Positions 1,278 through 56,093 of a stretch of 64,000 nt of DNA are shown here, in pieces. The stretch covers positions 13,799,673-13,863,672 of the forward strand of contig CM067349.1 in NCBI GenBank assembly GCA_034190875.2, given 5' to 3'. Below the pieces are notes generated by a model, which searched no databases, was not told the origin of the DNA, and saw only the letters and a program-made list of their open reading frames with translations. Position numbers and translations under genes: made by a program. Positions within the stretch are counted from its first letter, which is position 1, and every line of letters starts with the position of its first letter. The stretch comes from Urechis unicinctus. Lineage: Eukaryota > Annelida > Polychaeta > Xenopneusta > Urechidae.

Positions 1278-2412
1278 CTATTGTCTTTCCTGTATATGGC
1301 CGGCGAGAAGCAAAGGTTGCCTAGCATGTAGGAGAATGGGGTTTTGGCTATTCGGAGGGCTTCTTTTCCACCATGTGCTCGAAGGAGTTCTTGTATCCTG
1401 TGTCCATGGACCGGGACTGCAGTTGGGCTTTCCGAGGTTCCAAGAACAACAGTACTCTGTTTTGATTTTTGGCGACCCCAAAGTTTCTACAAAGATACTT
1501 TCCGGCTGGCAACGCCGATGGTTTTCGCTGCTCCTCCTTTCGAGGTGGTGGCAGTTCCAGTTCTGTAGGACCTCCATAGTTTGGCAATGGTTCTTCCCGG
1601 GGGCGATGGGCCTGGTGGCAAATTTGGAAGATCTGGATATTTGTTCTTTCCTGCGAGACATCTCCAGTGGCAGTCTTTTTGTTGGCATACACAGTTCTCT
1701 GCCAGACTCCCAACGAGCTGTGTGTATCGTAGGCACCACACAAGAGCATTCGTCGTCGTAGAGATTCTGGATGTTTTGGATGCAAGACGGGATTTCTGTT
1801 GTCTCTGGGACTACAAGCGGCAATGGGACCGGTCTGGGTTCGTAGGCAATGTTGTGGTGGCTCCACAGCGGGCATTTCTTGCTATCGACGCAGTGGTCTG
1901 TTGCCCCACATTTGCAAGTACTATCTGGATCCTCGAAGATCTTTGGAGGTGGGCCATCACATTTGCTGAGTGGTATGTCTGCTTTTCGGGGCCTCGAAGA
2001 AACAATACGAAGCTTGTACAGGTAGACAAAGTCGAGAATATGGCCTGCCTGGACTGGTTCTTGGAAGCTTGCAAGATATATTTCTAGAAAATCTTTTTGG
2101 TATCTGGTATCGTTCGAAGATGCCAAACCCAAGGAAATCTAGAATCTCTAGCTCTCTTTTGGATAGAAACAAGTAGGGAAACCTCTTTTCTAGAAGATCC
2201 CAGTTCTCCGCTCGTTGTCCGAAAGATGGCAGTGCTGGGCGGCTTTTGGAGTCTAGGATAGTATTTGGAGGTGGAGCATTTTCTGGGGCTATTCCACGGA
2301 TTTTTGCGTACCTTGCTTGCGAAATATGGTATTTCTCCTTTGCTGCACAAACAGACAAGGCTCCAGATCGTATCTCGGTATAGGCTTCTCGTGGTAGGGT
2401 TGTTCTTGGCAT
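1278..2412 (-). pseudogene. Element 1 gene: helix-turn-helix plus zinc-knuckle-like protein, frameshifted
   Basis: The start is taken as the ATG at 2412, where the protein opens MPRTTLPREAYTEIRSGALS and continues with a Psq-like helix-turn-helix (AAKEKYHISQARYAKI, residues about 23-38). Similar protein continues in another frame from about 2132, so there is a frameshift near 2100-2132. That second frame carries CKCGATDHCVDSKKCP (about 1870-1916), a compact Cys/His cluster like the zinc knuckles of mobile-element nucleic-acid-binding proteins, although the spacing is not a textbook CCHC. Beyond about 1850 the frames become unclear, with Pro- and Lys-rich fragments in all three, suggesting further indels. 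The product was probably a nucleic-acid-binding protein of the element. No transposase catalytic motif was recognised. A long plus-strand frame at 1581-2087 is its antisense shadow. Confidence 0.5.
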
Positions 2413-2646
2413 GGTATATACCTATGTAGGGTGTTTGGCTCGTTGGTTGTCGAAGGCTGTTGTTTTTTGCATGTTTGGCCCCTGGGCTGGCGCGGTGGAG
2501 GATGTTGGTTTGCGCTGGGTTGTTTGCATTGGTTTGGAGGAGGAGGTGACCTATCTGTGAACCCCCATTGTCATTGTCCTGTATATGTGTGGTTGCTGGT
2601 TTTCTGTACTAGATGTGTACCCATAAAATTTTGACTGGTTGGACAA

Positions 2647-2790: not shown

Positions 2791-3921
2791 GAGAGCAAAT
2801 GCGCAGCAACCATCCATACTATGAACAGTTACGTACCAGGACCTATCATCAATACGTGATCCAGACAGCTGATCAATACTTACATATATAGGTGACATTT
2901 TCGCTGTATCTTGTGATTGCCTTTCATTTGAAAGCAGTGCGGGCACCCCTATCCTATGTGTTGATGCGTTTTAGATTCAATAGGTGATTGTAAATGTACA
3001 AATACCCTTGAAATACCTTACATCCTTAGCAACCATGCCTTAAGCTCAATGCATCCAATGGTCGCTAATTCTTGTTCGGACACTATGAAGGCTCAGTAGA
3101 CTATACCTTTAACGTCATGCCGTAATGCATACCGAGAATCTTCAACAGTATGTTAAATGTGTGGTCAGGCCTGTAAATAACAAATGATAGTAATGGCAAT
3201 TGGTTGTAAATTGCTAACAGGGAGTTAATTGGGGTTGGTTGTCATACACGTAGTTTCCTGTCCATTGGTACCAACCAGTGATGGCTGGTCAGTATAATAT
3301 AATTCCAGTTAATACTGCATGATAATCAGCAGTCTCTAACCAGCAAACCGGCTCTCCTCAAAATCCCAACCCCGGATCTTTACGCGGATTTGTAAAGGAT
3401 ATTTTAATGTCAGGAGCATTATTCATTTTCTGTGATTCTAGGAATGCCCAACTGAATGGATGAATCGGGTCTCTGAATCAAACGAACGAGGTTCCTTCAG
3501 TTAGATACATGATTGCATACCCGTCTTCTGTGCTTGGATCTGTCCGTCCCAATGTATAATTTCCTCTCAGACATCATATAAAAGTCATATTTGATCAAAT
3601 ACACCATTACAATATTAGGCTACTGAAAATCAGTAATTGCTACTGACCAAGAGACACCAATTCAGTATCTCATGGAAGAGGCGTAGCATAGCCTAAATCA
3701 ATAATGTTAACAAAGGAGAGCACTTCATTAATCCGGGATGGAATATCACCAGTCTGACTTGAAACAAATATAACCCTTATGCAAACTGTAATCTGTTTGT
3801 TTAATTTGGCACAAGAAATTCAATCCCATATTGTATGTGTTCATGATATGATATGCAGATATACAATGTTTCTACGATAACAGAAGGTAGATGACATCGT
3901 AAAATCAAAGATATTAATATC
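2791..3921. other. AT-rich stretch, no gene seen
   Basis: No coding frame, RNA gene or clear repeat was recognised between element 1 and the assembly gap. Confidence 0.55.
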
Positions 3922-44440: not shown

Positions 44441-45347
44441 GAAAGAACCTTAGATTGATCTCTGCTATATTTGTTACCGCTATTACATTGTTGTTCCTGG
44501 TTTATTTTGCCTCCAGATTTGCAATGACTTCTACAACAATTTCCGACCTAAGTGTAAGGTTCCATGATTAAGATGTCTAAACAATGTGCTTGCATCGGTT
44601 TGAGGTCAAATGCACGTAAACATTTGCAATAAAAAAACTTTGGTGAGTTATCAATTATCAACGTAAATTAGCATAAAGTGTGAACGCATGTTTAATTATA
44701 AATAATGCTTTGCATGACGCTTTCGTATCCGTCTTTGCAATCTAGCAGTTATCCTATGCATTGCAAAATAACTGAGATATAACTTTGGGAATTACTGAAC
44801 TGTTTTAAAAAGCAAATGCGCAGAACATGTCAATGTAGTATGAACCTCGAAAGGGTCAGAAGTTATAGTTACTGTTCTTTGACCAACTACAAACAACTTC
44901 TAGTCTCATGAATAATAGTTTGCGATGCATAGTCACTCACTTAATTCACTTGCCTAGTGCTGATTTCCTGTTTTAGACAAGCTTATATTGGGATGCGTGG
45001 CTCAATGAGTTCTTGGCGAAAAGCAGATGCTAAGTATTGCGTGTTTTGTAGTTGACCGACGAACAGGTATGTTTCAATGGTTTGTGTTAGATATCTTTAG
45101 TTGGCTTTTTTTGTATTGGCGTCTGGATTGATAAGAACGAATTGAATCCACTGGGTAGGATGTACAGAATCCCACTTGGGCGTACCATCTCACTAGTTGG
45201 TAATTGTACGTATACATACTATTCGAATTGCATGTGTGTCTTTTGTCAAAATATGTACAACAAGTTGTATTGGAGTATTGGATAAATATGGAAGACCGAT
45301 TATTATTTGTTTGCTCCTTGAATCATACAAAAGTTATATGTATGCAT
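44441..45347. other. AT-rich stretch, no gene seen
   Basis: No supported feature up to the TA that flanks element 2. Confidence 0.5.
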
Positions 45348-45349
45348 TA

Positions 45350-45442
45350 GTATAGAGAGTGGGGGTACGAGCGCAGTTTCCAAATGGACGCACATACAGA
45401 AAATCAGCCAGCCTTGGGTACGAGCGAACTTCCACTTCCTAC
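45350..45442 (+). repeat. Left terminal inverted repeat of element 2
   Basis: It starts GTATAGAGAGTGGGGGTACG. The word GGGTACGAGCG occurs twice, at about 45363 and 45416, a possible pair of transposase-binding sites. It is paired with 48404-48496. Confidence 0.95.
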
Positions 45443-45815
45443 ACTACACTAATATAAGAGCGTACAAAACGTCGGGACTACCCATAGTTGGGACTATCTC
45501 CAGGGATCGTGGTTTGGTCTCTTTGTTTTCTTTTTTCCACCCAACGCCTTTCACGCCCCTGTTGTTGGTAGCATGCAATCGAGCCTCCCCAACGTCTGCC
45601 CAATAGCCTACAAAACCTCTTCCATTGGTTTCTTTGTTCTGTCCCAAGCGATCTATTTGTCAACCCTATAGCCTACAAAACCTGGCCTGTCCTGTAGCCT
45701 ACAAAGCCTCTCCCAATGGTGGTCTGCCCCAAGCGATCGATTTGCCTGCCCTGTCTCCTATTTCATGTAGAATGGGTCCCACCCAACTAGCTTAGTCTAG
45801 GGTCCAATGTCCCGA
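45443..45815. repeat. Noncoding module of element 2 with tandem 100-bp unit
   Basis: Read on the minus strand, the unit with GATCGCTTGGG, CCA-TGG-AGAGG and TTTGTAGGCTA occurs twice (about 45600-45680 and 45680-45770). The same module is in element 1 at 658-790. No gene is supported. Confidence 0.6.
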
Positions 45816-46370
45816 CTAGTGGTAGGCTTGGGGGCCGGTTCTGGTTTTGGTAGAAAACTTCGATGCGGCTTCCATGTGGTTCTTTGTAATTTTCCAAACC
45901 TTCCATGCAAGCAATTTGGCGAATCCTGCATATCCCGCCATTTGCAATCTTGTCCAAATCGACGCTAGGTCCGCAGTGGTTCCTACACTGGTTCCAACCT
46001 CTTCTATATTGTCTTCCAGAACCGACAAATTGTCGTCTATGACGTCCTCTACGGATTCTGCAATAGTGTCTACCTTTTATTCTATATCGTCCATATTTTT
46101 CTCTATATTTTGCATTGTATAGTAGCCAGCATCCCATTGGGATTGCTACTAGTAGACTCTTGGGTTACCTTGGCTGGCTGGTGGAGGTAATTTGGATTGC
46201 CACTCTGGAAGACCTCCATAGAGCTTGCTGGCCCCTCTGTTGCCCAAGTTCTCGACAGCCTAGTGGACCCGATACCATACTTCTTTTTTTGCGACAGCAA
46301 CAGAAATTCTTCCCAAGTCTGCACGTAGGTTTTGCACTGCTTCTTCGGAGAGGTATTCTGTGAATGGCAT
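45816..46370 (-). pseudogene. Element 2 gene a: Psq-like helix-turn-helix and coiled-coil protein, broken
   Basis: The start is the ATG at 46370 (MPFTEYLSEEAVQNLRADLG). A Psq-type helix-turn-helix follows with GRIS and an A-K-K-K-Y-G-I-G-S-T-R core. In this copy the A-run near 46275 carries an indel that throws the frame into an early stop, while the next frame continues KKKYGIGSTRL. Further on the frame changes again near 46100. The C-terminal part reads SVLEDNIEEVGTSVGTTADL and WTRLQMAGYAGFAKLLAWKV to a stop at 45816, with heptad-like leucines and acidic residues suggesting a short coiled coil then a hydrophobic stretch. Length would be about 180 residues. The likely role is DNA binding for the element. 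Element 1 has a truncated homologue at 578-679. Confidence 0.55.
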
Positions 46371-46429
46371 AGTATTGGTACCCAAGACTAAAGCTCCAAA
46401 AGGTCGTCCCAACCACGTCAATCCACTCC

Positions 46430-46679
46430 TACCCACGCCTACCCCGTCCTTGCAACCAGCCCACCCGGTATAGTGTTATACTAGGCCACAACAATACAAC
46501 AACAACACTACAACAATACCACAACAATACTGCAACAATCCTACAACACTACTAAACAATACTACAACAATACCTTGGCAATACAAGGCAATACCATACT
46601 ATACACACACACTACCACGCGACCTACACCCACCCATGCGCATCGATTCTTGTGGCAGACTAGTATAGAACCCCCATAA
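46430..46679. promoter_or_regulatory. Divergent intergenic region with ACAACAATAC repeats
   Basis: Between the heads of gene a (minus) and gene b (plus) lies a degenerate 10-12-bp repeat of ACAACAATACC (about 46488-46590). Its position between divergent genes makes it the likely promoter region of both, which is inference from layout. The repeat would also explain local slippage. Confidence 0.4.
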
Positions 46680-47282
46680 TGACGGCATATAATGTTGGAA
46701 TGGAGGAGTGGGTTCCTCCTGGCAACATAGACATATAGACAAATAGGTGTATAGGGCTCCCAACGTAGGTGGTATTGATGGTCCTCCCAGATGTGTGCCA
46801 AGATTCGACCGGGATATCTTTGTGGGTGCGGTCGAAGAATACCAAACGTGTTCCCAGAGATTCCAGAAGTTGGCACCACTACGCCATCTGGCCCCAGAAA
46901 AATTGTTGGCCATGTTTCGCGGGAGAACACAAAAAATATGCATAGATGGTTGCATGGGCCGCTGTATATTGTACAGTACGATGGCGTCTACGTGCCATGT
47001 GCGCAAAACGGGTTCTGTTTTGGGGTGGGAGCTAGGCCGTATTGGCAAAACTGGTAGTCTACACTATATAGACAAAGACACCCGGGTATATTCGTAGATG
47101 CAACTGGAATGCAAAACAGGAGAGCGTATTTCTTTCCCTATCTCGACTTCCAGAGGGCAATCCAGAATGCTCGGCAGATAACATGCGGTTTGGAGGAGCT
47201 GGAAAAAGAGGCTTCCCTGGTGGAGGACCCGAAGGTGTTGAGGTGGATAGACAAAGACCAGGCGAAAGAGTGGTGGTCGTAG
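46680..47282 (+). pseudogene. Element 2 gene b: unassigned plus-strand protein, frameshifted
   Basis: Protein-like sequence continues through three frames. The ATG at about 46680 gives MTAYNVGMEEWVPPGNIDI and a stop. The next frame has APNVGGIDGPPRCVPRFDRD and RFQKLAPLRHLAPEKLLAMF. Another has HRWLHGPLYIVQYDGVYVPC. The last reads HPGIFVDATGMQNRRAYFFP and ITCGLEELEKEASLVEDPKV, ending KEWWS at a TAG at 47280-47282. Aromatic and charged residues with few low-complexity runs make this a credible former protein of about 200 residues. No family was recognised. It is divergent from gene a and ends 77 bp before the end of gene c, tail to tail. At least three frameshifts show that it is dead in this copy. 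Confidence 0.5.
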
Positions 47283-47359
47283 ACGTTGGGCCGGCTGTAT
47301 GCCGTGGGAGATAGAGGGTACTTCTGTATCCGTGCTGGGGTGGAGGTATATCCTTCATG

Positions 47360-48392
47360 CTAGACCCCGACAATTGCAACAAGTCTGGACTTGTTCTTGG
47401 TGGGGTTGGTCCGGAGTGCTCCAATCTTGCAAACAATTGGGCCCAGTATTTTTTCCAGTGATTTCGAGAGCCGGTCGACTTCCTTTTCCAGAAAGTAGCC
47501 ATAGGCCGCAAACTCAAACCCGTCCCGCTCCAAGAAAAGGACTGTGCGCTTGGCCCCTCGGAAGGTTTTCTTGCAAAGTGGGTGCATGTGTATGCCCCCT
47601 CTTCCATGCCCTGGAAGTTTGAGAGCTCTAGGGCTTTGGGTGCCACGGTTTCTACAAGATATGGCGATGCGTAGTCTTCTAGAACTATATAGTCCTTCGC
47701 TATTACATCTAGGCTGCTTGCCGATTCAGCCGAGGCTTGCAGTGCTTCGAGCATGTCAGGGCGTGGGGCATGCCGCACAGATATTGGGTTCCACGCGATC
47801 TGTTCTCCTCCTCGCGGACGAAAGGTCTGCTCGGGGTGGATTTGGATATCCAAAGAGTAGGGTCTTCGCGACTCAATCCAGTACACCTGGCGGTCTAGCC
47901 TATCCACCGAGTTTGCGAAGAACTCCTTGCACTGCTCCAGAATCTCCCCATAGCCTTGGTAGGCCAGACCACGACGACTTGGTCCACAGCTTGCTCGTGC
48001 TCCAGTTCAATTCGGGCACTCTTTTCTTCCCCATCTCTGCACCTATACCCGAGAACCGACCACTGGCCAACATTCAGGGATATTTTGGTTGTCTTCCCGT
48101 CCAACAAACGCTCCAGAACCTCCTCTATCGTGGCCGTCAGGTTCTTTCGACGCTGGAAGACAGCAGAGGCTATGTCTTGCAACTCTTCCAGTTCTTTTTC
48201 TCGGATCCGCTGCTGCTTTGCATAGGGCTCTCTCTCAGCTTCCTGGTATTTCCTGGTGGACTCTCTCCACAGTTCTGCATTCCTTGCATCCAGAATTTCC
48301 TCCATGCGCATTTGGTGGTTGCGGGTAAAGCACATGGATATCTCTCAATGGATGGCCACATGGGGAGCTTCTGGCACTTCTTTGTTTTCCAT
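47360..48392 (-). pseudogene. Element 2 gene c: long coiled-coil protein, unassigned, broken
   Basis: The gene starts 12 bp inside the right terminal repeat with an ATG at 48392 (MENKEVPEAPHVAIH), then an in-frame TGA, then ISMCFTRNHQMRMEEILDAR. A highly charged helix follows (RKYQEAEREPYAKQQRIREK, ELEELQDIASAVFQRRKN), predicted by eye as coiled coil. A frameshift near 47900 leads to VDRLDRQVYWIESRRPYSLD and on to DYASPYLVETVAPKALELSN. Another near 47590 leads to PLCKKTFRGAKRTVLFLERD, then AAYGYFLEKEVDRLSKSLEK and a stop at 47360. Total length would be about 340 residues. Size and position make it the best candidate for the main element protein, but no catalytic triad can be assigned. The plus-strand 287-codon frame at 47544-48407 is its antisense shadow. 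Confidence 0.55.
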
Positions 48393-48403
48393 TACCACTC
48401 TAT

Positions 48404-48496
48404 GTAGGAAGTTTAAGTGCGCTCATACCTCAGGCTGGCTGATTTTCTGTATGTGCGTCCATTTGGAAACTGCGCTCGTACCCCCACTCTCTATAC
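48404..48496 (-). repeat. Right terminal inverted repeat of element 2
   Basis: Reverse complement of the left repeat, identical over its outer 65 bp. It is followed by TA at 48497-48498. Confidence 0.95.
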
Positions 48497-48498
48497 TA

Positions 48499-56093
<7,595 letters not shown>

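Follow-up and report, generated by a model that had tools for sequence, protein, structure and literature searches.

A probable Maverick-terminated composite carrying a three-gene module in the genome of Urechis unicinctus

The window analyzed here is a stretch of 64,000 nucleotides from the genome of the annelid Urechis unicinctus (assembly GCA_034190875.2, contig CM067349.1; G000:C8:13799673-13863672), and the element under study occupies positions 45346-48500 of it. This element is probably an inactivated, non-autonomous composite in which Maverick termini enclose a three-gene module, and the module is plausibly a satellite of Mavericks. The interpretation is carried by the composite anatomy of the element, its 5-bp target-site duplication (TSD), the separate recurrence of the module in the genome, and the strong association of module and Maverick-type sequence in the loci that were read. 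Judged by sequence, the outer part belongs to the known Maverick/Polinton kind, and the inner three-gene module is without recognizable relatives in the libraries searched. Genome-wide searches covered the 1.19-Gb assembly (926 contigs), and the loci read were picked by similarity to the window copy.

The element is bounded by the 5-bp duplication TATGC (45341-45345 and 48501-48505). Its inverted arms align over 96 nt with 94% identity (90/96), and the first 67 aligned columns are identical; the terminal 21-mer, with up to three mismatches allowed, has three matches in the window and 0 in 100 shuffles. An initial annotation of this DNA had correctly recognized inverted ends of about 93 bp, identical over the outer 65, but had placed them between TA dinucleotides. 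The apparent TA flank arose because the start of the element had been set 4 bp too far in; with the ends at 45346 and 48500, the flanking duplication is TATGC. The left end of a segmental duplicate (L002, C8:13222764-13228897) reads ATATATGC followed by AGTAGTATAG, the latter corresponding to ATTAGTATAG in the window. A single further near-full copy was found, at C8:13224264-13227397, with 98% identity. The window locus (L001, C8:13843522-13849670) and L002 form an inverted segmental duplication, about 620 kb apart and 96.9% identical over 6.1 kb including the flanks. Since the flanks of the near-full copy are duplicated too, the exact compound represents one insertion, and the second copy was rejected as evidence of independent transposition.

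The 3.15 kb is not the single element that had been proposed: its outer arms come from one family and its gene-bearing interior from another. With the whole 3.15-kb sequence as query, the interior was found at many places without the arms. With the left arm as query (40 scored matches of 623 candidates), most matches lay away from any interior match.

The arms carry the terminus pattern AGTAGTATAGAGAG..., which occurs with up to three mismatches at 528 places genome-wide (265 forward and 263 reverse; 0 for a backward control). The suggested search of the assembly with the terminal repeat therefore did yield many places, although the expected TA flanks are absent and the pairs have 5-bp TSDs instead. 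Besides the window copy and its duplicate, at least 14 inverted terminus pairs were spotted by eye among the matches listed; 11 of them span 9.4-14.5 kb and the other three 5.7, 6.6, and 22.8 kb, the length of an intact Maverick being 12-25 kb. Ten of the 14 pairs were fetched, one of which (on C2) is itself a composite. The 5-bp duplication is exact in 7/10 and has one mismatch in 3/10, and mispaired flanks agree over 5 bp in 0/90 comparisons. The (AGT)n...(ACT)n form of Maverick/Polinton termini is present (AGTAGTATAG...CTATACTACT), and the 5-bp TSD of the outer part falls within the 5-6 bp of this group. Vertebrate Mavericks are described with termini (AGT)2//(ACT)2 and 6-bp TSDs (PMC8097293) and polinton-like viruses with TSDs of 5-6 bp (PMC12220804).

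The assignment to Maverick/Polinton is made because a 12.3-kb pair with this terminus encodes the C-terminus of a family-B DNA polymerase (PolB), which appears on translating the sequence from 450 to 900 bp in from its left end (L078). The coding sequence runs toward the terminus, has one in-frame stop, and includes the motif YTDTDSL. Pfam family PF03175 has 91 genome matches over its cut-off, and such a match can be followed immediately, within one open frame, by a similar C-terminal peptide, an example being on C1 near 58.473 Mb. For the PolB C-terminal peptide, the genome holds 4007 first-look candidates (150 of them scored); from this number, Mavericks appear very abundant in the host genome.

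Copies of the interior with inverted ends of their own (TAAGAGCGTACAAAACGTCGGGACTACC) are found in L003, L040, and L043, and the most complete copy of the module, in L040, measures 5420 bp. The module end, with up to two mismatches, occurs at 79 places genome-wide (control, 0). The window copy is missing the right ~2 kb of the module and the right module end, and the right arm follows directly after the equivalent of module position 3450. Traced by tblastn with relatives, the genes in the window are remnants of A (minus), B (plus), and C (minus), and all frames are broken. The minus/plus/minus order of three gene remnants seen at first is thereby confirmed, the same genes recurring with the same relative strands at other loci.

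The recurrence was quantified from genome-wide protein matches. For gene C, the best 150 of 509 first-look candidates were scored and gave 151 matches, of which 149 listed places were used; for gene A, the best 150 of 830 candidates were scored and 150 places were used. For gene B, 150 of 151 candidates were scored and gave 126 matches, of which 96 were used after extra pieces of an already entered place had been dropped by eye. At the 149 listed C places, B lies within 8 kb at 33 (random B: mean 0.135, maximum 2), A at 24, and both at 13; the last include loci at which gene C shares no more than 55-59% identity with the query. Neighboring C and B are on opposite strands in 36/37 cases, whereas neighboring C and A share a strand in 23/24, again among the matches listed. 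Their joint recurrence elsewhere in the same relative orientation marks A, B, and C as genes rather than chance frames. Listed A, B, or C matches lie inside the module end within 6 kb at 54/79 ends, only outside at 1/79, and nowhere near at 24/79; 22 of the listed terminus matches were entered in this proximity check. In codon-rate scans, substitutions between copies follow a 3-base period over parts of the module, most strongly in module positions 3101-3300 (p as low as 2.5e-15). Many frames look alike in these scans, and the conserved order and the protein matches are therefore preferred as evidence. An Rfam search of the sequence gave no match. The features of the element are collected in the table.

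Table. Features of the composite, in window coordinates
Feature	Position	Strand	Remarks
Left target-site duplication TATGC	45341..45345		Equals 48501-48505; same TATGC before the unmutated terminus in L002
Left Maverick-type terminal arm (AGTAGTATAGAGAG...)	45346..45447	+	Inverted match to 48396-48500; first bases mutated to ATTAGTATAG
Module remnant	45455..48406		Left end TAAGAGCGTACAAAACGTCGGGACTACC at 45455; pieces 85-92% identical to L040 module positions 1-3450
Gene A remnant	45816..46387	-	tblastn 46385-45906 with a relative, and open frames; frame broken
11-bp degenerate tandem repeat, CAACAATAC-like, between genes A and B (family D1)	46475..46583	+
Gene B remnant	46757..47360	+	tblastn 46757-46885, 46843-47094, 47130-47360; frame broken
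Gene C, C-terminal part only	47361..48377	-	tblastn 48377-47964, 47943-47554, 47578-47361; frame broken
Right Maverick-type terminal arm (...CTATACTACT)	48396..48500	-	Inverted match to the left arm
Right target-site duplication TATGC	48501..48505		Equals the left copy

Twenty-three module ends were printed and 19 compared; L002, L012, and L019 were omitted as copies of loci that were kept, and so was the right module end of L042, whose flank is only 10 bases long. By reading of the flanks, 18 of the 19 continue into Maverick-type terminal sequence running outward, which belongs either to the arm family of the window or to a second family holding a PolB C-terminus and a short AGTAGT...ACTACT palindrome. 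In a locus fetched as a test (L080, 151 bp next to one of the listed termini, with a gene C match of 66% identity close by), a Maverick arm likewise joins the first bases of a module-like end, for a count of 19/20; L046 and L052, outside this count, also have module ends beside Maverick-type sequence. In L035 the module has one and the same PolB C-terminus on either side, pointing outward in both cases (88.6% identity over 290 columns), an arrangement that simple insertion into one site would not leave.

Composites also have 5-bp duplications at their Maverick ends: TATGC in the window, GCCTT in L040 (by eye), and GACAT, exact, at the 5.7-kb pair C2:56055100-56060760, which holds a gene A match in an open frame of 244 amino acids, a module end, and a PolB C-terminus. 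Such duplications are as expected if composites moved as units. The window composite thus shares its ends and its duplication length with inverted-terminus elements of 9.9-14.5 kb in the genome, one of which encodes the PolB C-terminus.

Two observations touch on composites and termini elsewhere. One composite, made up of the left arm and a portion of the module, is present in repeated copies clustered near the start of C12, at 255-643 kb and 4.12-4.15 Mb. Near-palindromic units of about 50 bp, AGTAGT...ACTACT with G-rich and C-rich halves, stand near module ends in L003, L009, L025, L034, L035, and L044 and are possibly hairpin-like Maverick termini.

Within the window, positions 426-2782 hold a further Maverick-type end, whose terminus belongs to the family described here (AGAAGTATAGAGACTAGGGG, 2743-2782, minus). 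Near it are an open reading frame (ORF) with a helix-turn-helix (HTH)-like segment (1957-2421, minus) and, at 587-785, pieces of gene A and of repeats belonging to the module; this region is probably another damaged composite.

Several points weigh against a Maverick-terminated composite with a satellite module. Neither an empty site nor an active copy was seen. The right flank of L003 could not be assigned to a Maverick arm, and after grouping of shared joints the 20 module ends shrink to 14 distinct joints (13 in Maverick-type arms); because the loci were picked by similarity to the window copy, the association may partly reflect shared ancestry. Among the matches listed, no B is near 116/149 C places, neither B nor C is near 102/150 A places, and 25/79 module ends have no gene inside, although incompleteness of the lists or decay may account for lone genes and gene-less ends. 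On the Maverick side, PolB was found in one full-size pair, the sole such pair read inside, and no matching stretch was identified at the other end of that pair (L079); the TSD, at 5 bp, is also one base shorter than the 6 bp of vertebrate Mavericks.

Gene C is central to what the module might do. Its conserved core, used as a tblastn query, has no match in the window at E 0.01. The core is found elsewhere in L053:1135-2469 (minus), with 445 amino acids and no stop, and in L055, with 381 amino acids. Many of the 509 first-look candidates of the gene C family are in long open frames, and invariant residues include NT-S-GKH and K-Y--VV--F (seven aligned sequences, 48-86% identical to the first). 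The stretch initially singled out as the best transposase candidate is indeed a remnant of gene C, still the favored candidate for an enzyme of the module; it is only the C-terminal part, in which no known transposase signature was found. Gene A, read by eye, has an HTH-like N-terminus, a coiled coil, and a hydrophobic C-terminal stretch.

The profile and structure searches for a known enzyme that the initial annotation had recommended gave nothing above chance. No window frame or module protein has a Pfam match over the cut-off, the best sub-threshold match being DASH_Duo1 on the coiled coil of gene A (E 0.019); gene C has no Pfam match up to E 10 and no match to a Rep family up to E 5. Searches of the module proteins against PHROGs (best E 0.04) and NCBIfam (best E 0.11, far below the cut-offs) found nothing above chance. 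The PDB gave one match by sequence (E 0.73) and none by profile, phages none, plasmids two (best E 0.9), and IMG/VR none that was confirmed. A single-sequence structure model of the window gene C piece (predicted local distance difference test, pLDDT, 76.7) has a long helix followed by strands. Its fold search against the PDB gave 115 matches up to E 10, none significant (best E 0.98), and several of these non-significant matches are Holliday-junction resolvases (E 1.2-3.9). The model of the gene B piece (pLDDT 35) is uninformative. Gene C was also considered, as a tentative lead, for an HUH/rolling-circle initiator, of which its layout is faintly reminiscent; the Pfam and PDB profile searches found no Rep domain, though remote similarity is possible. 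The earlier suggestion of a poorly described family accordingly fits the inner module, whose proteins matched nothing above chance, and not the Maverick outer arms.

A more tentative view, with less than even probability, holds that the module is an autonomous hyperparasite: gene C would be an undescribed recombinase or replication protein, and the module would spread by acquiring Maverick termini for use by the Maverick polymerase and integrase.

Plain nesting is an unlikely alternative; here the module would be a common cut-and-paste transposon whose TTATAA/TTAA-like, TA-rich target led it to land often in abundant Maverick-derived repeats. The base-level picture at the joints is mixed. TTA precedes TAAGAG or its variants at 19/23 printed module ends, making a palindromic TTATAA that a piggyBac/Kolobok-like element might duplicate at both ends, yet at five joints (L031 group, L033, L034 group, L035 right, and L038) the un-joined relatives seen have TG, AG, TT, or CT rather than TA. 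Suitable sites do occur in un-joined relatives at three others: TT/AA or TA/AA by the left joint of L035, TAT/AAG at the L042 joint, and TTATA, by eye, in L033 where L080 has its joint. Un-joined relatives were searched for at the L040, L041, and L003 right joints, and none was found. The sheer number of PolB C-terminal fragments (the 4007 candidates) would favor chance landing, but 18/19 ends in Maverick-type sequence far exceeds the few percent of the genome that these elements would occupy (a rough estimate from 4007 x ~12 kb), and the L035 flanks are the same PolB end outward on both sides, not two halves of one site.

Less likely again, genes A, B, and C would be native to a divergent Maverick lineage, with the module ends as an internal inverted repeat of that lineage. 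The HTH-like segment of gene A resembles the ORF at window 1957-2421 beside a Maverick terminus (14/35 identical, E 1e-4, in a single comparison), and gene A has more first-look candidates (830) than B (151) or C (509). Against this, the module ends join different positions of two different Maverick arm families, which a fixed internal repeat would not do, and the listed genes lie on the inner side at 54/79 module ends and only on the outer side at 1/79. A single TA-duplicating DNA transposon with three genes, of a new or known family, has almost no probability left: boundaries can be chosen that put TA next to both ends, but the TSD is 5 bp in the window copy and recurs, exact or with one mismatch, at 10/10 further pairs, and arms and interior are found separately in the genome.

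If the module is a passenger or satellite of Mavericks, the composites would be moved and replicated in trans by the Maverick integrase and protein-primed polymerase. The product of gene C, the best candidate for an enzyme of the module itself, would define the precise module ends and join them to Maverick arms. Two outward arms may have come about through end-joining or template switching while linear Maverick DNA was being replicated, and only properly terminated products would spread. The window copy would then have lost the gene C core and the right module end and gained stops and frameshifts, and would last have been copied, flanks included, in a segmental duplication.

Phages and giant viruses are known to have satellites that make use of a helper's ends and machinery. 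Among the open-licence papers listed in literature searches, none was seen to describe such a three-gene satellite for Mavericks in a large eukaryotic genome, and the composites would, if the interpretation is true, represent a gene-bearing Maverick parasite that is open to testing. Gene C adds a protein family that counts 509 first-look candidates in a single genome and matches nothing above chance in the libraries searched.

Known mobile elements resemble the composite in part. Like Tc1/mariner, pogo, and ISL2EU elements, it has inverted ends, with TA beside an end if the boundary is shifted; ISL2EU elements encode YqaJ besides a DDE transposase. Unlike these families, which are rejected here, the window copy has a 5-bp TSD and not TA, and no transposase family was matched: the window frames and module proteins had no Pfam match over the cut-off, to a DDE transposase or otherwise. 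The initial idea of a non-autonomous member with accessory genes was nearly right, with Mavericks (5-bp TSD, AGTAGT...ACTACT) in place of a TA-duplicating superfamily. The likeness to Maverick/Polinton elements lies in the AGTAGT...ACTACT termini, the TSD within the 5-6 bp range, and the PolB C-terminus encoded close to one end of a full-size pair. In contrast to them, the window copy is only 3.15 kb long, has no standard Maverick gene shown, and carries a foreign three-gene module, and its TSD is 5 bp compared with 6 in vertebrates. The closest parallel found for the module is the Ngaro retrotransposons, which insert in endogenous virophages (EMALEs) of Cafeteria (PMC8547959); some Ngaro types are mostly inside these Maverick-like elements, including in the terminal inverted repeats and the protein-primed PolB gene (PMC8547959). 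In both cases a second mobile unit is nested in Maverick-like elements. Ngaro elements belong to the DIRS order, with a reverse transcriptase, a tyrosine recombinase, and split direct repeats, whereas the module has inverted ends, three unfamiliar genes, and outward Maverick arms on both sides.

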